A stretch of 27,044 nt of DNA, taken from positions 1 to 27,044 of the IMG/VR virus record IMGVR_UViG_3300017773_000107; one strand, written 5' to 3'. A program made the translations under genes and the position numbers. The notes beneath the pieces were generated by a model that searched no databases, had not been told where the DNA came from, and worked only from the letters and a program-made list of their open reading frames with translations. This DNA is from a virus. Below, one piece after another: positions 1 to 18,237 of the stretch (position 1 is its first letter; the number at the start of each line of letters is the position of its first letter).

Positions 1-1793
1 ACTTCTTCCATAATTCTAATGATCTTATCTGCATCCTCAAGTGATGCAATGGATATATCAAGTTCGTCGTGAATTTGTACATGAGGTATAACTCCTTCTC
101 GGTATAAGGCCAGCATAGCCATCTTTGTCATGTCAGCCGCTGATCCTTGTATTAGTTTGTTTAATGCTTTGTATGTGAATGCGCGTTTAATCCCCGGGCC
201 ATGTTCTCTCAGTGCGTCTGCATGGGGTAATGGTTTCTTAATACCAAAACCATGGGGCTCCCATAGATCAAAGTGACATAGGCGACCACCAATCGTGCGT
301 ATCTTACCGCTGTCATCTGCTCTACGCGATACAGCATCCGATAACATTTTAACAAATGGTGCACGTTGATGGTATGTCTTAATGAGTTTCTCTGCTGCCT
401 CTTTCAACAGACCTAACTCAGCCATCAGCTTGTTCTTGCCCATGCCATACATTAATCCTAAGTTAATAGTTTTTGCTTGTTTACGTTCTATGCCGGCCAT
501 GTCCGCGATCATCTGATGGAAGTCAGCGTCGCCTGAATTGTAGCCGTCAACAATAGTTTGTGTTCCTTCTAGTCTTAACAAAGATGCAAAGTGTACAACA
601 AGTCTTGGCTCTTGTTGACTGTAGTCAAAACAACCCCACTTACATTTTTCTTCTGGTATAAATAAACTTCTAATTAGCGGGCCGAGTTCCTTGTGCCTTG
701 CTGGTATCTGCTGTAGGTTTGGATTACTATAACTGAATCGTCCTGTCACAGTTCCGCCATCATCTGACCTTATCTGATTGATATCACTATGTATTCTACC
801 CTTATGGTTGTGCTTTAATATTGTGTCTATGAACGTGGTGCTAGCTTTATTTATCTCACGTGCTTGGTTAATTAGTTTTGGTAATTCATGTGGGTGAGTC
901 GCCAGGAAATTTTTAGTAAACGATGGCGCACCTTTTTCTGTTCTGTCATATGGTAGCTTGACTATGTCGAATGCTTTTGCAATAGACGCTCCAGCCCATA
1001 TCTCTACATCAAAACCTGCTATCTTTTTTATGTCCTGGTGCATTTGTTTTTCTGATACAAGCAGCGATTTTTTAGTTTGCTCTGCTTTATCAATGTCAAC
1101 GCGTACACCTTTGAACTTCATGTCTACTAGACATGGAAATAAATTAGTTTCTAAATTAAATACATCCCACAGATCTTGTTTCTCTATCTCGTGTTGCATT
1201 GCTGCCCATAACTTTAATGTTATTACAGCGTCTTGTTCTGCATACTCACCAACTAATGGTGCTGGTAGTCTCCACATCTCTGCTTTTGGATTGATGCCCC
1301 ATTCTTTTGCTGCCTCAACCAATAACTTTTCACTTTTGCCTACACCAATATATTCTTTTGCAACTGAGTCTAGTGTATAACTCCATCTGTTTTCATTACA
1401 CAATGATGCTGCAATCATAGTATCTATGATACCACCATTGATATAAAAACCCATCGACCGTATCCAAGACACGTCATACATTGCGTTGTGAAATATTTTT
1501 GTAGCTGTTGTTTGTAAAACTTCTTCAAACCAATCTAATACTAATGCGCGATCCATGTTGCCACCACCTTCGTGATTGATCGGGAAGTAACCTGACCATC
1601 CTTCTACTGCAACTGCAATACCAATCACTTCACCATCGCGACGTACAGAACCAGAGCCCATTGTCATTAAGTTTGGATCTCTTGTTTCTAAATCTATTGC
1701 AATTTCTTTATGATCTTTTAAATCTGGTAGATGTGTTGGCGGTACCCATTCGGTTTCCGGTTTAAACATCGGCATCTGTAGAGGTTTATTCAT
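1..1793 (-). CDS. Family A DNA polymerase with 3'-5' exonuclease domain, C-terminus cut by window edge
   Basis: Replicative phage DNA polymerase of the Pol I type, lacking the 5'-3' exonuclease domain. The ATG at 1793 gives 597 readable residues. The proofreading domain shows ExoI DLET (D34, E36), ExoII in FHNAMYD (N103, D107) and ExoIII in YAEQDA (Y184, D188). The polymerase domain shows motif A DYSQQEPR (D390), motif B with R437, K441, Leu445 and Y448-G449, and motif C HDE (H575-D576). Only the last few dozen residues should lie outside the window. Leu445 occupies the place of E. coli Pol I Phe762. The start overlaps the end of the DUF3310 gene by 8 bp, so it is probably the last or near-last gene of the replication operon within view. 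Family assignment is secure; the host and exact subfamily are not known. Confidence 0.95.
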   Translation of the reverse strand, partial: MNKPLQMPMFKPETEWVPPTHLPDLKDHKEIAIDLETRDPNLMTMGSGSVRRDGEVIGIAVAVEGWSGYFPINHEGGGNMDRALVLDWFEEVLQTTATKIFHNAMYDVSWIRSMGFYINGGIIDTMIAASLCNENRWSYTLDSVAKEYIGVGKSEKLLVEAAKEWGINPKAEMWRLPAPLVGEYAEQDAVITLKLWAAMQHEIEKQDLWDVFNLETNLFPCLVDMKFKGVRVDIDKAEQTKKSLLVSEKQMHQDIKKIAGFDVEIWAGASIAKAFDIVKLPYDRTEKGAPSFTKNFLATHPHELPKLINQAREINKASTTFIDTILKHNHKGRIHSDINQIRSDDGGTVTGRFSYSNPNLQQIPARHKELGPLIRSLFIPEEKCKWGCFDYSQQEPRLVVHFASLLRLEGTQTIVDGYNSGDADFHQMIADMAGIERKQAKTINLGLMYGMGKNKLMAELGLLKEAAEKLIKTYHQRAPFVKMLSDAVSRRADDSGKIRTIGGRLCHFDLWEPHGFGIKKPLPHADALREHGPGIKRAFTYKALNKLIQGSAADMTKMAMLALYREGVIPHVQIHDELDISIASLEDADKIIRIMEE

Positions 1794-8369: not shown

Positions 8370-8388
8370 AACTTTCTCCGTTTTTTGA

Positions 8389-8417
8389 TTGACTTTATAT
8401 ATAACAATGATTATATA
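8389..8417 (+). promoter_or_regulatory. Sigma70-like promoter for the SNF2 helicase gene
   Basis: TTGACT (8389-8394) and TATATA (8412-8417) are separated by exactly 17 nt, close to the consensus -35/-10 arrangement. Transcription would begin around 8424, leaving a leader of about 12 nt before the ATG at 8436, with AAGAAAG as the ribosome binding site. It is interlocked with a leftward promoter in the same DNA. Confidence 0.7.
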
Positions 8418-8425
8418 AATGTCAA
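8398..8425 (-). promoter_or_regulatory. Sigma70-like promoter for the leftward replication operon
   Basis: On the minus strand TTGACA (8425-8420) is a perfect consensus -35 box. TATATA follows at 16-nt spacing (8403-8398), with another overlapping copy at 18-nt spacing (8401-8396). The first gene starts at 8369 behind GGAG. The -10 region lies inside the spacer of the rightward promoter, so the two polymerases could not bind at once. Confidence 0.7.
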
Positions 8426-8435
8426 GAAAGAAAAT

Positions 8436-10566: not shown

Positions 10567-13500
10567 TTATACTATCCCCCTTTGTCTTTGTCTAATAAGT
10601 TGTTCGTCTCTATTTAATAAAGCTGTTTCGTTCCCTGTTAAGCCAGTAGCTTCATTCACGGGCCCCGTTGCTGGCTGAGTCTCAGCGACTTGCACTGCTC
10701 CTGATGCTGGCAGCGGTGCTACTGGTGGCGCTGCTTGCGCTGTTTGATTGACCTGTGGTGTTTCTACAGCTGTTTGATTTTTACGTCTTTCGTCTAATCT
10801 TTTTTGCTGTTCTTCCATATATGCTTTTTCATATTCTTCAAAAGTTTTTACACTCCATTCAGATTTAAGAGTCTCTAATTCACCTATAGGCATAAAGTAA
10901 TCGTAGTCATAAACTTTTTCTACTTTAGGATTGTTTCTATATATTTCATTCATACGTGTGGTTAATCCTTTTTCACCAGTTGATAGTGGTGTAAAGTATC
11001 CTTCCATAATACCCATGGCTCTTGTCTCACCTAAACGATTTATTAAAACTTCTTGTATAACGTCGTCTTGCATTAACCTATCGTCATTTTGTAATAAAAC
11101 AAAAATTCTACCTTTGCTTTTACCTTTAAACCTATCTTCTCTTTCGTCGTCTGGAAGATTTGCAATTCTTTCAGCTTCAATTCTTTTTTCTGGTAAATTA
11201 TTTCTACCTTGAGCTGCTCTTACTGCTTTGTAAAACTCATATTGTTCAGCAAACGCTTCTCTATTTTGTTGGTTATAGGATGCTACCAACCATTCAGGTC
11301 CTCTATTCATATAGTCTTGGGTGCTAAAATAATTTTCTGTAGCTCTAGATGCTGGAAAAGTATCTTTAAAATCAGCTATTTTATAGCGCAAAGAACTTGG
11401 TAGATCTACAGTCACAGTAGACCCTCCAAACAATTTAAACAGTTCGTCCTTAAGAACAAGGGGAACTCCAGAACCTTTTTGAACATCACCTTGTAAAGCG
11501 TTAAATACTTTTTGAGCACTACTAAACCCACCAGGTTCTACAGTATTAAACCAGTGAGCCATAAACTTATCTATTTTTGTAGAAAGCCTATCTTGATTAG
11601 TAAAAATTGTTTTACCATTTTTGTCTTTACCCTTAGTTATTAAAGGCAATAAAGGTTCAAAACCAATGGACGTTCCAAAAAAAGTACCTCCTGCTAAATC
11701 ATATAAAGGTCCTGCTGTGTTAAAAAAAGATTTTAAAACTAAATCATCAACCATAGAAGGATCTAGTGTTTCTCTTTTTGGACCAGAATAAGTATTTAAT
11801 AAACTACGTGCTACAGAAGAAACTAAATCATAAGGAAGGTATCTAGACAAATCGAACACTTTAAATTGACCATCTACATAAATAGGTTCTTTTACAATAT
11901 TTCCATTTTTGTCATAAACAAAATTACCAGACTCGTCTTTAACTTTTCTTTTTATAATCTGACCTTTAGAGTTTTTCTTAGGAATTTTTGCAATAGGCAT
12001 TAACTGGCTGTATTTCATAAAATCAGGAGCAAAGTTTTTTTGATAGTTTCTAACTTGTCCTTCAGTAATACCTGTGTATGTGTGACCCAAACCACTAAAC
12101 ACCGCACCTGCACCACCTACAGCAGTGGCTTGTCCCATCAGTGTTCTGTATCCCATTTGTCTTAACATAGGATTATCGTCAGCTATGTGTTTGAGTGCAT
12201 AACCTGTAGTTGCCATACTTGTTCTAAGTATTTCAGCAGGGAAAGATACAAAGTTTCCAATAAAAGGAACACGTCTAAAAAATTTAACTAGATCAGGTAC
12301 CTTACTATACGTTGGATAAGTTTCTCTAATAGTGTATGCAGCAGCTTCTTCTATAGCTTGTTTTACTGTTTTAGCTCTACCAGTCATGGCACTAATTTCG
12401 TCAATATTAACACCAAACATTTTTCTCATATATTCCCCAACTTCAGCAACTGATCTAAATCCTACATCTCTTAACTGAGATTTAACAAACTCAGAACCAT
12501 ATAATTTCCATACGTTATCACCACCAGCATATAACTTAGTAGCTCCTTTAACTAATTCAGATTTGTTTATTCTTTCTGCTAGACCACCAATAGTTTTTAA
12601 TTGACCAGCTTTTATATCTTGAAGCACAGCCTGTAGTTCTGAAACAACAATGTTCTCGTCAATAACGCCAAGTTCTTTTTGTCTAGTTAAATATTTTATT
12701 AATTGTTCTTCGTCTGCTACTCTTCCTGCACCAAAAATATCATCCATTACCATTTTAAAAGCATCGGTTACAGAAGCGTTTCCTCCAATGTGTCCCATGT
12801 TTAAAGGAAAGAATGCTGCACTACCAAAGTTACGTGCTTGTGTAGCAGGAGAGAATACAGTTTTCATAGTTTGAACACCTGCTTTGTATGCTATAAGATT
12901 TTGCACAACAAAATTTTGATATAAGCTATCAAACAAACCACCCTGGCTTTGTCCTATAGAGTGAGCAATATCAGGTGATGCAAAATATTTAGTTATCTCT
13001 GGATTTAGTTCTCCTGTAATACCTGACATACGACCATCTGTTTTTGAAGCTATTCGTTGTGGGTTTAGTATACCGGCTGCACGTGCTTCTTCCCTGCTTT
13101 TAAATATCCAACCGTTTTCTAAACCATCATCAAGCATTCTTTTATACATCCTCATGTTCGAGGCTTGCGTTAGTAAGCTGGCTGTAGTTGTTACAACACT
13201 ATCTCTTAAACCACGTTGTTCTCCTAAAAATTTTCTAATGGCTTCTGGTAATTCTTCCCCTGTTCTTATTACAAGATCATCTAAAAATAAATTTTCTCTA
13301 GCAATATTAGACATAATATCTAATGGATCTCTACCTTCAATCCTAGTCTTCATCATAATTTCTTTTAAGTGTTGTTGAGCTTGAGCTTTAATACCGCCTG
13401 GATTGCTTTTAGCAACTTCTAATAGTGATTCATTTTTTTGAATTTGTTTCATAATAAAACTTAAGGCGTTTTCGTATATTTCTTTTTCTTGAGCGTTGAC

Positions 13501-16500
13501 AAGTCTTCCGCCTACTTTAGTTGTGTCTTCAAGCGCCGCTTCTATAATATTATATTTAGGATTATTAAAAACAGCAAAAGATTGTCTAATATATTGTTTA
13601 AGATTACTATTTAATAAAGCTTTTAAATCATTATCATCAGGTAAGATATCTCTAAAAGAAACTTTAATTTCGTCCAACACTTTACCAAGTTGTTTTGCAG
13701 GTCCTTGTAATGCTTCGTCGAGTTGATTAATTTTTACATTACCTTTTATATAATCTAACACTTGCTCTAACATAGCCTGTTCTCCAGCCGGAGATGTTGT
13801 ATTTTGATTGCTACGTTTTAAAAAACCAGTTGCTAAATCATGTGCTCTTACCTCTATCATTCGTAAAAGATCTTCTACTTGTGCTGTTCTAGCTTTTATA
13901 AATCTGTCTGTTTCACCTGAAATTCTAAAACGATCAGAGGATTGTCTAGCACTGTCTCTAAAATAAGCTAAAAAATTATCAAATCTTTTTAAACCAACTT
14001 CAAGAGCGTTGTCAGAAGTAACTTCAAACAAACGCCAGTCTTCATATGAAGGTAATTCTCCTTTAAATTTATCTTTCATAGATTTTTCAAATTGTTTACT
14101 ACCACCTTTAGTAGAGCCAGTAATAGATGTAGCAAAAGCTTTTCCAAACATTTCAGGAGTAGTAACATTAGCCGCTAGTCTTGATATAACATCACTACCT
14201 AAAAAATCAGAAAATATTTTAACACCACTGCCAATTCCAGAAAAAGCCTCACCCATTAAAGGCACATCAACTTCTAGGTTGCCCGCCTTACTAAAAGGTG
14301 CTTTTAATTTACCTGCTGCTAAATAAGACACAGGTTTAATAGCAAGTTCATCAGCAAGAGTTAATCCAATTCCGAGTACAGGAGCACCAATTTCTTTAAC
14401 AACAGGAACAGCACCAAATTTAAAAGCAGCTCCAATTAAAGGAAACATTCCTCCTATAATTGCACCATCTGCACCAAACCTTAATCTATTTCTAAAGTTT
14501 GCTAGTGCTAAATCTTTTCCTGTTAATTTACTTGTGTCCTCAAGTTCGTAGTTTAGAGGACCATCAAACAACAAAGGGTTGTCACCAAAATATTCATTAA
14601 CTGAATTGTAAGGACCACCTGCAACAATGTCAGTCATTCCAAAAGCAAGCGCATTGGTTCCTGCAGCTTTTGAAATATTACTAATAACAGTAGATGCATA
14701 TTTTGTACCTTTTAAACCTAGTGTAGATTCTGCAAACAAGTTTACACCAAACGCACCACCTAATAATTTTCTAAAACGATTTACTAGTTTATACGCTGTT
14801 CCAGCAGGTACTCCAAATTCTGTAGCAATTGTAGCTATCTTACCAAGAAATGTTTCAGGTTCACTTTTGTCCATTTCTTCAAAAGATTTCTTTAGTGCTT
14901 TTTGAAAACCAACGTCTTTATCAAATGCAGAGCCACCTAGATCTAAACCCATAGTTGCTATATCCATTATATCATAAGAGAGATTAACCAAACCCCTATC
15001 CATTCCTCTGTTTAATTCATCAATTGCGGAAATGTATGTTTGTTCTTCAGGTGTTTCAGGTAAGGGAGCTATCATTTGTTCGTACGCTTTATGCATTTGA
15101 GGAAAATATTCTTCAAACTGTATTCTGTCTACCTCGCCTTGATCTGTTTTAAAACCATTAGCTATGGTTTCAGCTAGCTCCATTAAATAAACACCACCAC
15201 CATAAAAATTAGCATTGATACCTTTTCGTATTAATGGGTTTTCTAACATTTTTTTAGGATTTAATAGTTCAGTAAACCTAAATTCTAATGGTTTTTTAGA
15301 AGATAAAAAATCTTGCGCATCTCTTTCTAATTGTTCTAAGTCTATAAGTTCTCGTTCTGCATCAAACTGTTCTTGTTCTACTGCAATAGACAAAGGATCA
15401 TTTGATCTCTGTCCTGAAGATACAAAACGATCAGCCATAACTTCTGGGTCTAAAGAAAATATTTTTTTGTTTGTACCTGGTTCTCCTATAGCAAATTTTT
15501 TTCTCTCTATAGGTATGCCGCCCATCGCATTGCCTGTATTTAAATTAATGTTTCTTAGATCAGCTCCAGGAGAATATTGTTTAATTATATTTTCTGTTTG
15601 CATTACATAAGGTATTTGACCTACTTCAGTTGCAAGTTGATTATAAGGTGCGCCAACAAGTTTATTGTTGTAACCAAATTTAGCTGGTTCATCTATGTAC
15701 AAAGTTACATTTAATTTTTTAGCTTGATCAACTATCTCTCTAATATTATCAATATCTTTCTGATCTATACTTTTTTGTTTTAAAAGTTTAGCAACATATC
15801 TATCAAAAGGTTTTTTAAAATCATTATTTAATGTTTTAGGTAATGTTTGTAAATTACGTAAAGCGTTAACTCCTGATGTATTAGCTAATTCTACAGGCAT
15901 TATGTGATCTGTTTCGTAAAAAGTTTGTGTGTAACTTTTTTCATTAAATTCGGTATTTTTTAATCTAGTTTTAGTAACATTAGGACTGCTTTTTGCCAAT
16001 TTTCCACTGTTTAAAACTCTGTAAGACAAATTATTTATTATATTTTCATTTTCTAATATAGAGTTTTGTAAATTTTTATTGTTTTTTATTGCAACGCTTG
16101 TATCTGTTTTCCAAACAAAATTAACTTGATCAAAAATACTTTGTTCTCTCTCACTTAATTTTATTCCATAGTCTTTTAGCCCAAGAACACGAGCTTCTTG
16201 TTTTGATCCGCTGTAATTTGTTGATCTATATCCTGCTTGTTTTGCACGATAAGCTGCATAGTCTTCTGGTGAATAAGAATATATTTTTTGATTTTGTGCG
16301 GCGTTTTTAAAATCTTTTTTAGAATAACCTTGTTCTTCTAAATTTTTTCTAGCTTGTTTTAAGTTCGGTATTTGTCTTCTAGTATTATCGTAAGCTTTAA
16401 AACCTGAGAGTCCTGCTGGAAACTCTTCACGTTTAAGACCCGCATAAAAATTTTTAGGTAAATCAACTCTACCTTTATCATTTATCAAAGCTTTGTAATA

Positions 16501-18237
16501 ATCTTCATATTCTTTAACTGACAATTGATTTTGTTTAAAATATTCTTTTTGTACTGCTTGTCTAAAATACTCTGACTCGGAACTAAAAGGTTGCAGTGAT
16601 TCACCTGGTTTACTACCATGCACCATTTTACCTTCTAACTGTTGAGCTATGTCTGTTAAGTTTTCTGAATAACTTTTACTTCCATCAACTAAAGGAGTTG
16701 TAAGATTTTTAGTGGTTGGCAATAAGTTAGACATGTTTCTTACCTTGCTTGCATCTTTGTCCCTAAAAGCATATTTTGCATCTTTTTCTAAACCATAGTC
16801 TGTAGATTTTTTTCCAAACATATCTACTAATTCTTTACCCGCTTTATCTGCTTTAATACCAAAGGTGATTCTTTTAGTTGCTAGTTCTATTATTTCTTTC
16901 TCGCTTAGTATCTCACCAGTTTCTGCTATTTCTTTTCTTACTTCTGCAATAGCTGCATCCATGTTTGCGTTTACTTTATTAGATTCTTTAACTATATTTT
17001 TTTTAATAAATTTTTTAGGATTAGCTTTTGCATATAACACAGCGTTGTTTTGAATTTTTTTAATATCTTTTTTAGAAACACCTTCATCTATTAGTTTTTT
17101 CATTTCTCCTTTAGATAACTGTCCTGTTTTAATATCATCAAACGAACCTGTTATTAATTTGCCGCCTTTACCAATAAGTTTAAAACCTGCTCTAGCAACA
17201 TTATCAAACATCCCTATTACAGGTATAAATTCTATAGCTAGCTGAGCAGCCTGACCCCCACCATAACTAGCGTCAACATCTGCAGCCATGCCCATGTTCA
17301 TTTCATATATTTCTGGATCTAAAGAATCTATATTTAAAGGAACTAGTTTTGTTCCTTTGTCAGCATTGTATATTACACCTTTATCAATCATGGTGTTTGC
17401 CATTTCCATAGTAGAAATATCCTTTGAAGACATTAGCTCGTTGTAAGTGTCCATAGTTTGAAACCTAAATTTTTTAAACGTTTTATTGTTTTTTAGTTTT
17501 TCATCTATCGGAACTTCTATATACATAACTGTATTGTTTTCATCATAAACAGTTTTTTGTTTATCAATCCAATCTACTTCTTTTGCTTCTGTGAACTTTG
17601 GTATAAGATATGGGTTTACTCCGCCAAGACCCATAAAAAAATTAGCTACAGAAGGATCGACTAAATTATCTCTAGCATAGTTATAACGGTCTGTTTCTAA
17701 AGATGTTATTTGTTCTGCAGCCTGGTTGTAACCAATGTCTCCTGCCGGCATATATACACCAGGGTTTAACTGTTTTCTTTTAAACTGTTCTCTATACCAC
17801 TGCTCATGATTAAAACTGTTTTCTCTTTTGTCAAAAGGATTAATTAATCTGTCTCCCGATCTTGCTGTTCCTAAACCATCTGGATCAGTAACCATTCCGC
17901 GATCAATCATTTCGTTAAATTGTGTGGGTGTTGAAAAATTTATCTCTTCTTGTCGAGTGCTAGCTTCTTTAACACCTGGAGCCCTGTCTAATACCAAACC
18001 TTCAGACTGAGCAAAAGAACTATATAAATTTTGATCAGTTGAAGTTTCTCCTTCAAAAGCTTTTCCAAATGAACTTGTAGAAAATCTAGGGTTTTCTACA
18101 CCAAATTTTTGCATTCCAATATTAGCAATAGATAAGTCACCAATTGAAGTGCCAACGAAAGGTTTATAGCCTTCCATAACAGGTTCTAAAAAAGGTTTTT
18201 CTCTGTCTAGTAATTCTTGTGTGGTTAAATTGGTCAC
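10567..18237 (-). CDS. Giant virion (probable ejection) protein, 2556 residues
   Basis: The largest gene, starting at a GTG one base after the previous stop. It is probably an internal protein injected with the DNA, the last of four such proteins and just before the lysis genes. Seen in order: residues 1-330 without recognisable motif; a glycine/hydrophobic patch (about 330-365, AIEFIPVIGMFDNVARAGF); a Lys/Asn-rich, very A+T-rich stretch (about 400-900) with an HNH-like signature at 777-805; AMGG...KKFAIG (904-918); hydrophobic segments around 1290-1330 (PLIGAAFKFGAVPVV, GLTLADELAIKPVSYLAAG); a helical region; a late SPATQARNFGSAAFFPLN and KVPDLVKFFRRVPFIGNFVSFPAE block that recurs in marine phage giant proteins; and a Pro/Ala-rich tail ending in RQRQRGIV. 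I found no RNA polymerase or lytic transglycosylase motif. The exact function is unknown. Confidence 0.85.
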   Translation of the reverse strand: MTNLTTQELLDREKPFLEPVMEGYKPFVGTSIGDLSIANIGMQKFGVENPRFSTSSFGKAFEGETSTDQNLYSSFAQSEGLVLDRAPGVKEASTRQEEINFSTPTQFNEMIDRGMVTDPDGLGTARSGDRLINPFDKRENSFNHEQWYREQFKRKQLNPGVYMPAGDIGYNQAAEQITSLETDRYNYARDNLVDPSVANFFMGLGGVNPYLIPKFTEAKEVDWIDKQKTVYDENNTVMYIEVPIDEKLKNNKTFKKFRFQTMDTYNELMSSKDISTMEMANTMIDKGVIYNADKGTKLVPLNIDSLDPEIYEMNMGMAADVDASYGGGQAAQLAIEFIPVIGMFDNVARAGFKLIGKGGKLITGSFDDIKTGQLSKGEMKKLIDEGVSKKDIKKIQNNAVLYAKANPKKFIKKNIVKESNKVNANMDAAIAEVRKEIAETGEILSEKEIIELATKRITFGIKADKAGKELVDMFGKKSTDYGLEKDAKYAFRDKDASKVRNMSNLLPTTKNLTTPLVDGSKSYSENLTDIAQQLEGKMVHGSKPGESLQPFSSESEYFRQAVQKEYFKQNQLSVKEYEDYYKALINDKGRVDLPKNFYAGLKREEFPAGLSGFKAYDNTRRQIPNLKQARKNLEEQGYSKKDFKNAAQNQKIYSYSPEDYAAYRAKQAGYRSTNYSGSKQEARVLGLKDYGIKLSEREQSIFDQVNFVWKTDTSVAIKNNKNLQNSILENENIINNLSYRVLNSGKLAKSSPNVTKTRLKNTEFNEKSYTQTFYETDHIMPVELANTSGVNALRNLQTLPKTLNNDFKKPFDRYVAKLLKQKSIDQKDIDNIREIVDQAKKLNVTLYIDEPAKFGYNNKLVGAPYNQLATEVGQIPYVMQTENIIKQYSPGADLRNINLNTGNAMGGIPIERKKFAIGEPGTNKKIFSLDPEVMADRFVSSGQRSNDPLSIAVEQEQFDAERELIDLEQLERDAQDFLSSKKPLEFRFTELLNPKKMLENPLIRKGINANFYGGGVYLMELAETIANGFKTDQGEVDRIQFEEYFPQMHKAYEQMIAPLPETPEEQTYISAIDELNRGMDRGLVNLSYDIMDIATMGLDLGGSAFDKDVGFQKALKKSFEEMDKSEPETFLGKIATIATEFGVPAGTAYKLVNRFRKLLGGAFGVNLFAESTLGLKGTKYASTVISNISKAAGTNALAFGMTDIVAGGPYNSVNEYFGDNPLLFDGPLNYELEDTSKLTGKDLALANFRNRLRFGADGAIIGGMFPLIGAAFKFGAVPVVKEIGAPVLGIGLTLADELAIKPVSYLAAGKLKAPFSKAGNLEVDVPLMGEAFSGIGSGVKIFSDFLGSDVISRLAANVTTPEMFGKAFATSITGSTKGGSKQFEKSMKDKFKGELPSYEDWRLFEVTSDNALEVGLKRFDNFLAYFRDSARQSSDRFRISGETDRFIKARTAQVEDLLRMIEVRAHDLATGFLKRSNQNTTSPAGEQAMLEQVLDYIKGNVKINQLDEALQGPAKQLGKVLDEIKVSFRDILPDDNDLKALLNSNLKQYIRQSFAVFNNPKYNIIEAALEDTTKVGGRLVNAQEKEIYENALSFIMKQIQKNESLLEVAKSNPGGIKAQAQQHLKEIMMKTRIEGRDPLDIMSNIARENLFLDDLVIRTGEELPEAIRKFLGEQRGLRDSVVTTTASLLTQASNMRMYKRMLDDGLENGWIFKSREEARAAGILNPQRIASKTDGRMSGITGELNPEITKYFASPDIAHSIGQSQGGLFDSLYQNFVVQNLIAYKAGVQTMKTVFSPATQARNFGSAAFFPLNMGHIGGNASVTDAFKMVMDDIFGAGRVADEEQLIKYLTRQKELGVIDENIVVSELQAVLQDIKAGQLKTIGGLAERINKSELVKGATKLYAGGDNVWKLYGSEFVKSQLRDVGFRSVAEVGEYMRKMFGVNIDEISAMTGRAKTVKQAIEEAAAYTIRETYPTYSKVPDLVKFFRRVPFIGNFVSFPAEILRTSMATTGYALKHIADDNPMLRQMGYRTLMGQATAVGGAGAVFSGLGHTYTGITEGQVRNYQKNFAPDFMKYSQLMPIAKIPKKNSKGQIIKRKVKDESGNFVYDKNGNIVKEPIYVDGQFKVFDLSRYLPYDLVSSVARSLLNTYSGPKRETLDPSMVDDLVLKSFFNTAGPLYDLAGGTFFGTSIGFEPLLPLITKGKDKNGKTIFTNQDRLSTKIDKFMAHWFNTVEPGGFSSAQKVFNALQGDVQKGSGVPLVLKDELFKLFGGSTVTVDLPSSLRYKIADFKDTFPASRATENYFSTQDYMNRGPEWLVASYNQQNREAFAEQYEFYKAVRAAQGRNNLPEKRIEAERIANLPDDEREDRFKGKSKGRIFVLLQNDDRLMQDDVIQEVLINRLGETRAMGIMEGYFTPLSTGEKGLTTRMNEIYRNNPKVEKVYDYDYFMPIGELETLKSEWSVKTFEEYEKAYMEEQQKRLDERRKNQTAVETPQVNQTAQAAPPVAPLPASGAVQVAETQPATGPVNEATGLTGNETALLNRDEQLIRQRQRGIV
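15793..15930 (-). other. HNH-nuclease-like segment inside the giant virion protein
   Basis: Residues about 770-815 read YETDHIMPVEL, a short Gly/Asn loop, then NALRNLQTLPKTLNNDF. This is the HNH layout: D777-H778 with following P781, then N795-L796 and a final asparagine (N804 or N805). The cysteine knuckles of many HNH proteins are absent, as they are in several true HNH families. The surrounding 150 residues are Lys/Asn-rich. The match is by eye and catalytic activity is not established. Confidence 0.55.

Follow-up and report, generated by a model that had tools for sequence, protein, structure and literature searches.

The analysed stretch of DNA, called the window in the following, comprises 27,044 nucleotides of the virus record IMGVR_UViG_3300017773_000107. 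Its positions 8370-8435 form a gap of 66 bp between the ATG of a leftward open reading frame (8369) and the ATG of an SNF2-like helicase gene (8436). The first leftward open reading frame, P0001 (8196-8369, minus strand), encodes 57 amino acids, carries the Shine-Dalgarno-like motif CGGAGAAAG ahead of its ATG and found no match in family searches. Next to it lies P0002 (7808-8224, minus strand), which encodes a Pam3 gp32-like protein (PF23992, E 5e-28); a gene of this type heads the leftward replication operon in most relatives. As the leftward genes encode Pam3 gp32-, gp33- and gp34-like proteins, an AEP-type primase, a UvrD-like helicase, an endonuclease VII-like protein and a DNA polymerase A, "replication operon" is a fair name for them. 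P0003 (8436-9881, plus strand) encodes the SNF2-like helicase (PF00176, E 4e-19; PHROG 62, E 8e-123) and is the only clear rightward gene within the window. A reading frame of 2556 amino acids at 10567-18237 (minus strand) has a partial match only, to a virion structural protein family (PHROG 22602).

The gap contains two putative promoters that interlock within 37 bp (8389-8425). The rightward one consists of the −35 box TTGACT (8389-8394, plus strand) and, after a spacer of 17 bp, the −10 box TATATA (8412-8417, plus strand), with a predicted start near 8424. The leftward one has the −35 box TTGACA (8420-8425, minus strand), the −10 box TATATA after 16 bp (8398-8403, minus strand) or alternatively after 18 bp (8396-8401, minus strand), and a predicted start near 8391 (minus strand). 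Each −10 box sits inside the spacer of the other promoter and the −35 boxes form the ends of a dyad, in which TTGAC/GTCAA and TTTATATA/TATATAAA are mirror-paired with an offset of one base. A preliminary description of the locus had given the boxes and spacers, the coordinates of the offset dyad and the 66-bp gap, and all of them proved exact when checked against the sequence. Shuffling the 66-bp gap 20,000 times produced the dyad in 6 cases, shuffles of the relatives' junctions did so in 11 of 5,240, and the pattern TTGAC-N24..30-GTCAA has one match in the 27-kb window compared with a mean of 0.25 in shuffles of the whole window. Judged by its sequence, the dyad with its two putative promoters is thus a genuine, non-chance observation.

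Both −10 hexamers in the window match the consensus at four of six positions and have no T at position 6; measured against E. coli, they are weak. The built-in sigma70 scan of the window listed neither promoter because it demands a T at this position. With TATATA as −10 box in the window, the case for promoters rests on the relatives, which commonly have complete promoters with TATATT. At the leftward −10 position, TATATT, TATGTT, TATCTT or TACATT are found in relatives. In a genome-wide search of ten relatives, TTGACW-16..18-TATAAT was nearly absent, so that no strong typical promoter can serve as a yardstick.

Conservation in related phages

Relatives were gathered by similarity of the SNF2 protein, independently of the dyad. 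TTGACW-N-WGTCAA was present in 55 of 58 close relatives, in one copy each. A profile search reaching down to about 60% identity gave 134 junctions, counting the window and two isolates, and 120 of them carry the dyad, with TTGAC on both strands and A or T as sixth base in nearly all; the two −35 boxes are conserved alike, and in several relatives lacking the dyad the rightward TTGAC stands alone. Many of these loci are phylogenetically close, so the counts do not represent independent events. The dyad is also carried by the isolate 023Pt_psg01, and it occurs once per record in this isolate and in six long contigs of relatives. The preliminary description had proposed an alignment of the intergenic region across relatives, and in this comparison the dyad is kept while the flanks drift. 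Its upkeep in well over a hundred related ocean phages suggests a real working part of the genome and no coincidence.

The dyad is missing from 14 of the 134 junctions. Two of them (L097 and L128) are on contigs that start inside the junction, and in L099 the dyad is found upstream of an inserted gene. L140, L143 and L148 have no dyad and instead hold complete promoters back to back, leftward TTGACA-16-TATATT and rightward TTGACA-17-TATATT. Inspection by eye showed that L043-L045, L093, L113, L132, L146 and the cultured phage HTVC027P have TTGAC in the rightward direction, followed at 16-17 bp by a TAT-like box, and no leftward partner; HTVC027P lacks the leftward −35 box and keeps the rightward TTGACT-17-TATATA. 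The dyad is absent at the junction in HTVC023P, DSL-LC04 and MW202510.

The genes next to the element are exchangeable. Directly behind the two predicted promoters, L208 and L223 have a tryptophan halogenase gene as their left gene (PF04820; L208:625-2139 and L223:6291-7721, both minus strand). In L099 (779-811 onward) and L200 an extra gene for about 165-180 amino acids lies between the dyad and the SNF2 gene, leaving the dyad at the head of the operon. To judge from these junctions, the element can persist while the neighbouring genes on either side are swapped.

Spacing of the promoter boxes

Among 92 distinct dyads, a TATA lies 16-18 bp from its own −35 box in 75 for the rightward promoter, in 54 for the leftward promoter and in 44 for both, compared with shuffle means of 19, 17 and 2.7 and shuffle maxima of 28, 27 and 7, respectively. 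The best rightward spacer was 17 bp in 77 of the 92 and the best leftward spacer 16 bp in 54 of the 92. The motif TANNNT was not enriched for the rightward promoter (19 of 92; shuffle mean 25), hence this count alone fails as support for the rightward promoter, which comes from the TATA spacing instead.

The total length of the element was 33, 34, 36, 37 or 38 bp among 182 distinct SNF2 junctions; a length of 35 bp was absent from these 182. For the most part, 36 bp corresponds to rightward/leftward spacers of 16/16, 37 bp to 17/16, 38 bp to 17/17, 33 bp to 17/16 and 34 bp to 17/17. Regardless of the length of the dyad, each TATA box keeps its distance from its own −35 box, mostly 16-17 bp. 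The SNF2 tree indicates repeated changes between dyad classes, a pattern that recombination at the junction could mimic. The absence of the 35-bp length is not predicted by two independent promoters.

When 2.9 million viral contigs were scanned for TTGACANTATA-N10..18-TATANTGTCAA with lengths of 32-40 bp allowed, the 34-bp form, in which both spacers measure 17 bp, accounted for 73 of 79 loci among the matches listed. Of these 79, 70 are SNF2/gp32 junctions and hence related to each other, and six of the nine others are also 34 bp long. The perfect-consensus form was found in 31 bacterial contigs, of which 18 have the 34-bp length, a count that leaves out the viral locus L299. These 34-bp counts come in part from a pattern search, and since 11 of the 18 bacterial cases belong to one TetR/DsbA-like gene pair, the bacterial ones represent few independent cases. 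In these Clostridia-type loci (L268, L269, L273, L275, L277, L279, L285, L291, L295, L296 and L298) the genes of a TetR-type regulator and a DsbA-like protein diverge from a perfect 34-bp twin consensus, the two protein families having been checked in L273 only. Palindromy of the centre was considered as a control against this Clostridia promoter and dropped, as it gave no separation (0.29 vs 0.32).

Start codon position in the 34-bp class

In the 34-bp class, the leftward ATG is located exactly 7 nt past the −10 box in 78 of 81 gp32-type junctions (e.g. L105 and L149), and these leftward starts are nearly always without a Shine-Dalgarno-like motif. The position of the ATG predicts a leaderless mRNA for the left gene of this class. 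The halogenase gene of L208 starts at the same place, directly ahead of its FAD-binding motif, which supports the choice of start codon. The clade of the window itself has a leader with CGGAGAAAG ahead of the small extra reading frame; for this reason the leftward mRNA of the window is not predicted to be leaderless.

Discussion

We propose, with a probability of roughly 0.8, that two divergent sigma70-type promoters make up the element, that host RNA polymerase most likely reads them and that they serve compact co-expression. The two-promoter anatomy is supported by comparative sequence, and we infer the sigma70 identity of the promoters and their use by the host enzyme. According to one report (PMC12753301), the cultured phage HTVC027P, which has a related gene pair, relies on host RNA polymerase throughout infection. 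A polymerase bound in either direction would cover the whole element including the boxes needed by the opposite promoter. Given established footprint sizes, the location of each −10 box in the spacer of the other promoter would make binding of the polymerase mutually exclusive. The preliminary description had likewise read the locus as two divergent promoters that overlap too much for joint occupancy, a reading with which the geometry and the conservation of both −35/−10 pairs agree. Each initiation event would then serve one of the two sides, leftward the replication operon or rightward the SNF2-like gene, and the ratio between them would be set by the relative strength of the promoters. In its simplest function, the element would let the replication operon and the SNF2 helicase be expressed together, in a compact arrangement, from one landing site of the polymerase.

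Could the dyad chiefly be an operator, at which a dimeric regulator of the phage or the host binds the half-sites TTGAC...GTCAA and acts on the two genes as repressor or activator? Classic divergent regulons such as Tn10 tet and E. coli bio place operators over both promoters, and the ends of the dyad are perfectly symmetric. In the set used for covariation, the TTGAC/GTCAA columns are invariant because of the way the search expression was built. However, a dimer operator would fix the distance between its half-sites, yet this distance varies from 33 to 38 bp, which disfavors an operator. Outside the boxes, hardly any symmetric pair covaries beyond expectation: the centre pairs are at expectation in the 34-bp set, and the 37-bp set has one weak symmetric association (pair 7/31, observed 0.67 vs 0.49 expected). 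The conserved symmetric letters of the 34-bp class are explained by its two −35 and two −10 boxes. Moreover, L140, L143 and L148 hold both predicted promoters without a dyad and other relatives only the rightward one, and no transcription regulator was recognized among the proteins searched in the 27-kb record. We therefore regard an operator as quite unlikely, and the suggestion of a site for a dimeric regulator in the preliminary description as disfavored by a dyad of variable length around stable spacers of 16-17 bp, by the lack of central covariation and by the three promoter pairs without a dyad. Spacing, separated promoters, weak covariation and swapped neighbor genes all fit two promoters. 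On this comparative evidence, the element is best described as two overlapping divergent sigma70-type promoters and not primarily an operator.

A regulated switch, in which mutual exclusion and a differentially acting regulator alternate expression between the replication operon and the SNF2 gene, would add to the two-promoter reading and is compatible with it. Exclusive occupancy follows from the geometry, and in plasmid pLS20 a genetic switch includes overlapping divergent promoters (PMC4207663). That switch, however, is tied to a regulator acting differently on the two promoters, with opposite effects, and none was seen in the window. In E. coli, polymerases compete at bidirectional promoters only when these are strongly active, and the basal activity of all five promoters tested was too low for competition (PMC12825309). 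Relatives with separated promoters also persist. Both findings, exclusion that matters only at high activity and the need for a regulator in pLS20, favor shared expression over a switch, which we consider unlikely; the symmetric switch or coin-flip with a regulatory outcome that had been envisaged for the locus is not supported, for the same reasons. It is very improbable that only one direction works, with AT-rich, symmetric DNA having produced the other as a by-product. The −10 boxes of the window are indeed weak and the leftward −35 box is missing in L043-L045 and HTVC027P, but both −35 boxes are near consensus in 120 loci, the leftward TATA spacing is enriched too (54 of 92 vs 17) and a complete leftward promoter stands alone in L140, L143 and L148.

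Beyond the pair of divergent promoters as such, we tentatively consider a further possibility, which we hold to be doubtful. A marine phage lineage may long have kept a polymerase-sharing device with one landing site and two selected geometries (33-34 or 36-38 bp, never 35 bp), in which mutual exclusion of host RNA polymerase fixes the ratio between the often leaderless replication operon and SNF2, and the −35 box of one promoter doubles as the start region of the other. The locus represents a conserved natural test of one polymerase binding site shared by two operons. Interlocked, separated and one-sided versions occur before the same genes, so that the effect of interlocking on ratio and noise would be measurable in reporters. 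For many relatives a leaderless start is predicted, which makes a second claim, also open to checking, about how common ocean phages express their genes.

Overlapping divergent promoters with dyad symmetry are known from Tn10 tetA/tetR and E. coli bioA/bioB, where the dyad binds a repressor dimer. In contrast, it is the promoter boxes themselves that make up the dyad of the phage element, and their distance drifts between relatives. With the prokaryotic bidirectional promoters of Warman, Grainger and colleagues (PMC12825309, PMC10268837), which are enriched between divergent genes in chromosomes, the element shares pseudo-symmetric DNA, divergent RNAs and steric exclusion of two polymerases, the RNAs being predicted and the exclusion deduced from geometry in the phage element. 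Promoters of that type have one shared or overlapping −10 element and starts 7-25 bp apart, most commonly 18 bp, whereas the phage element has separate −10 boxes, −35 boxes that form the dyad and predicted starts about 33-37 bp apart (about 33 bp in the window), which places it outside this definition. The Pc/Pr promoters of pLS20 (PMC4207663) are likewise divergent with overlapping core promoters and accommodate one polymerase at once, as the geometry suggests for the phage element. They are of very unequal strength and controlled by RcoLS20 and DNA looping, while no regulator or second operator was seen at the phage element, whose genes are a replication operon and a helicase. In conclusion, overlapping divergent promoters are of a known kind; the interlocked geometry and its conservation are new.
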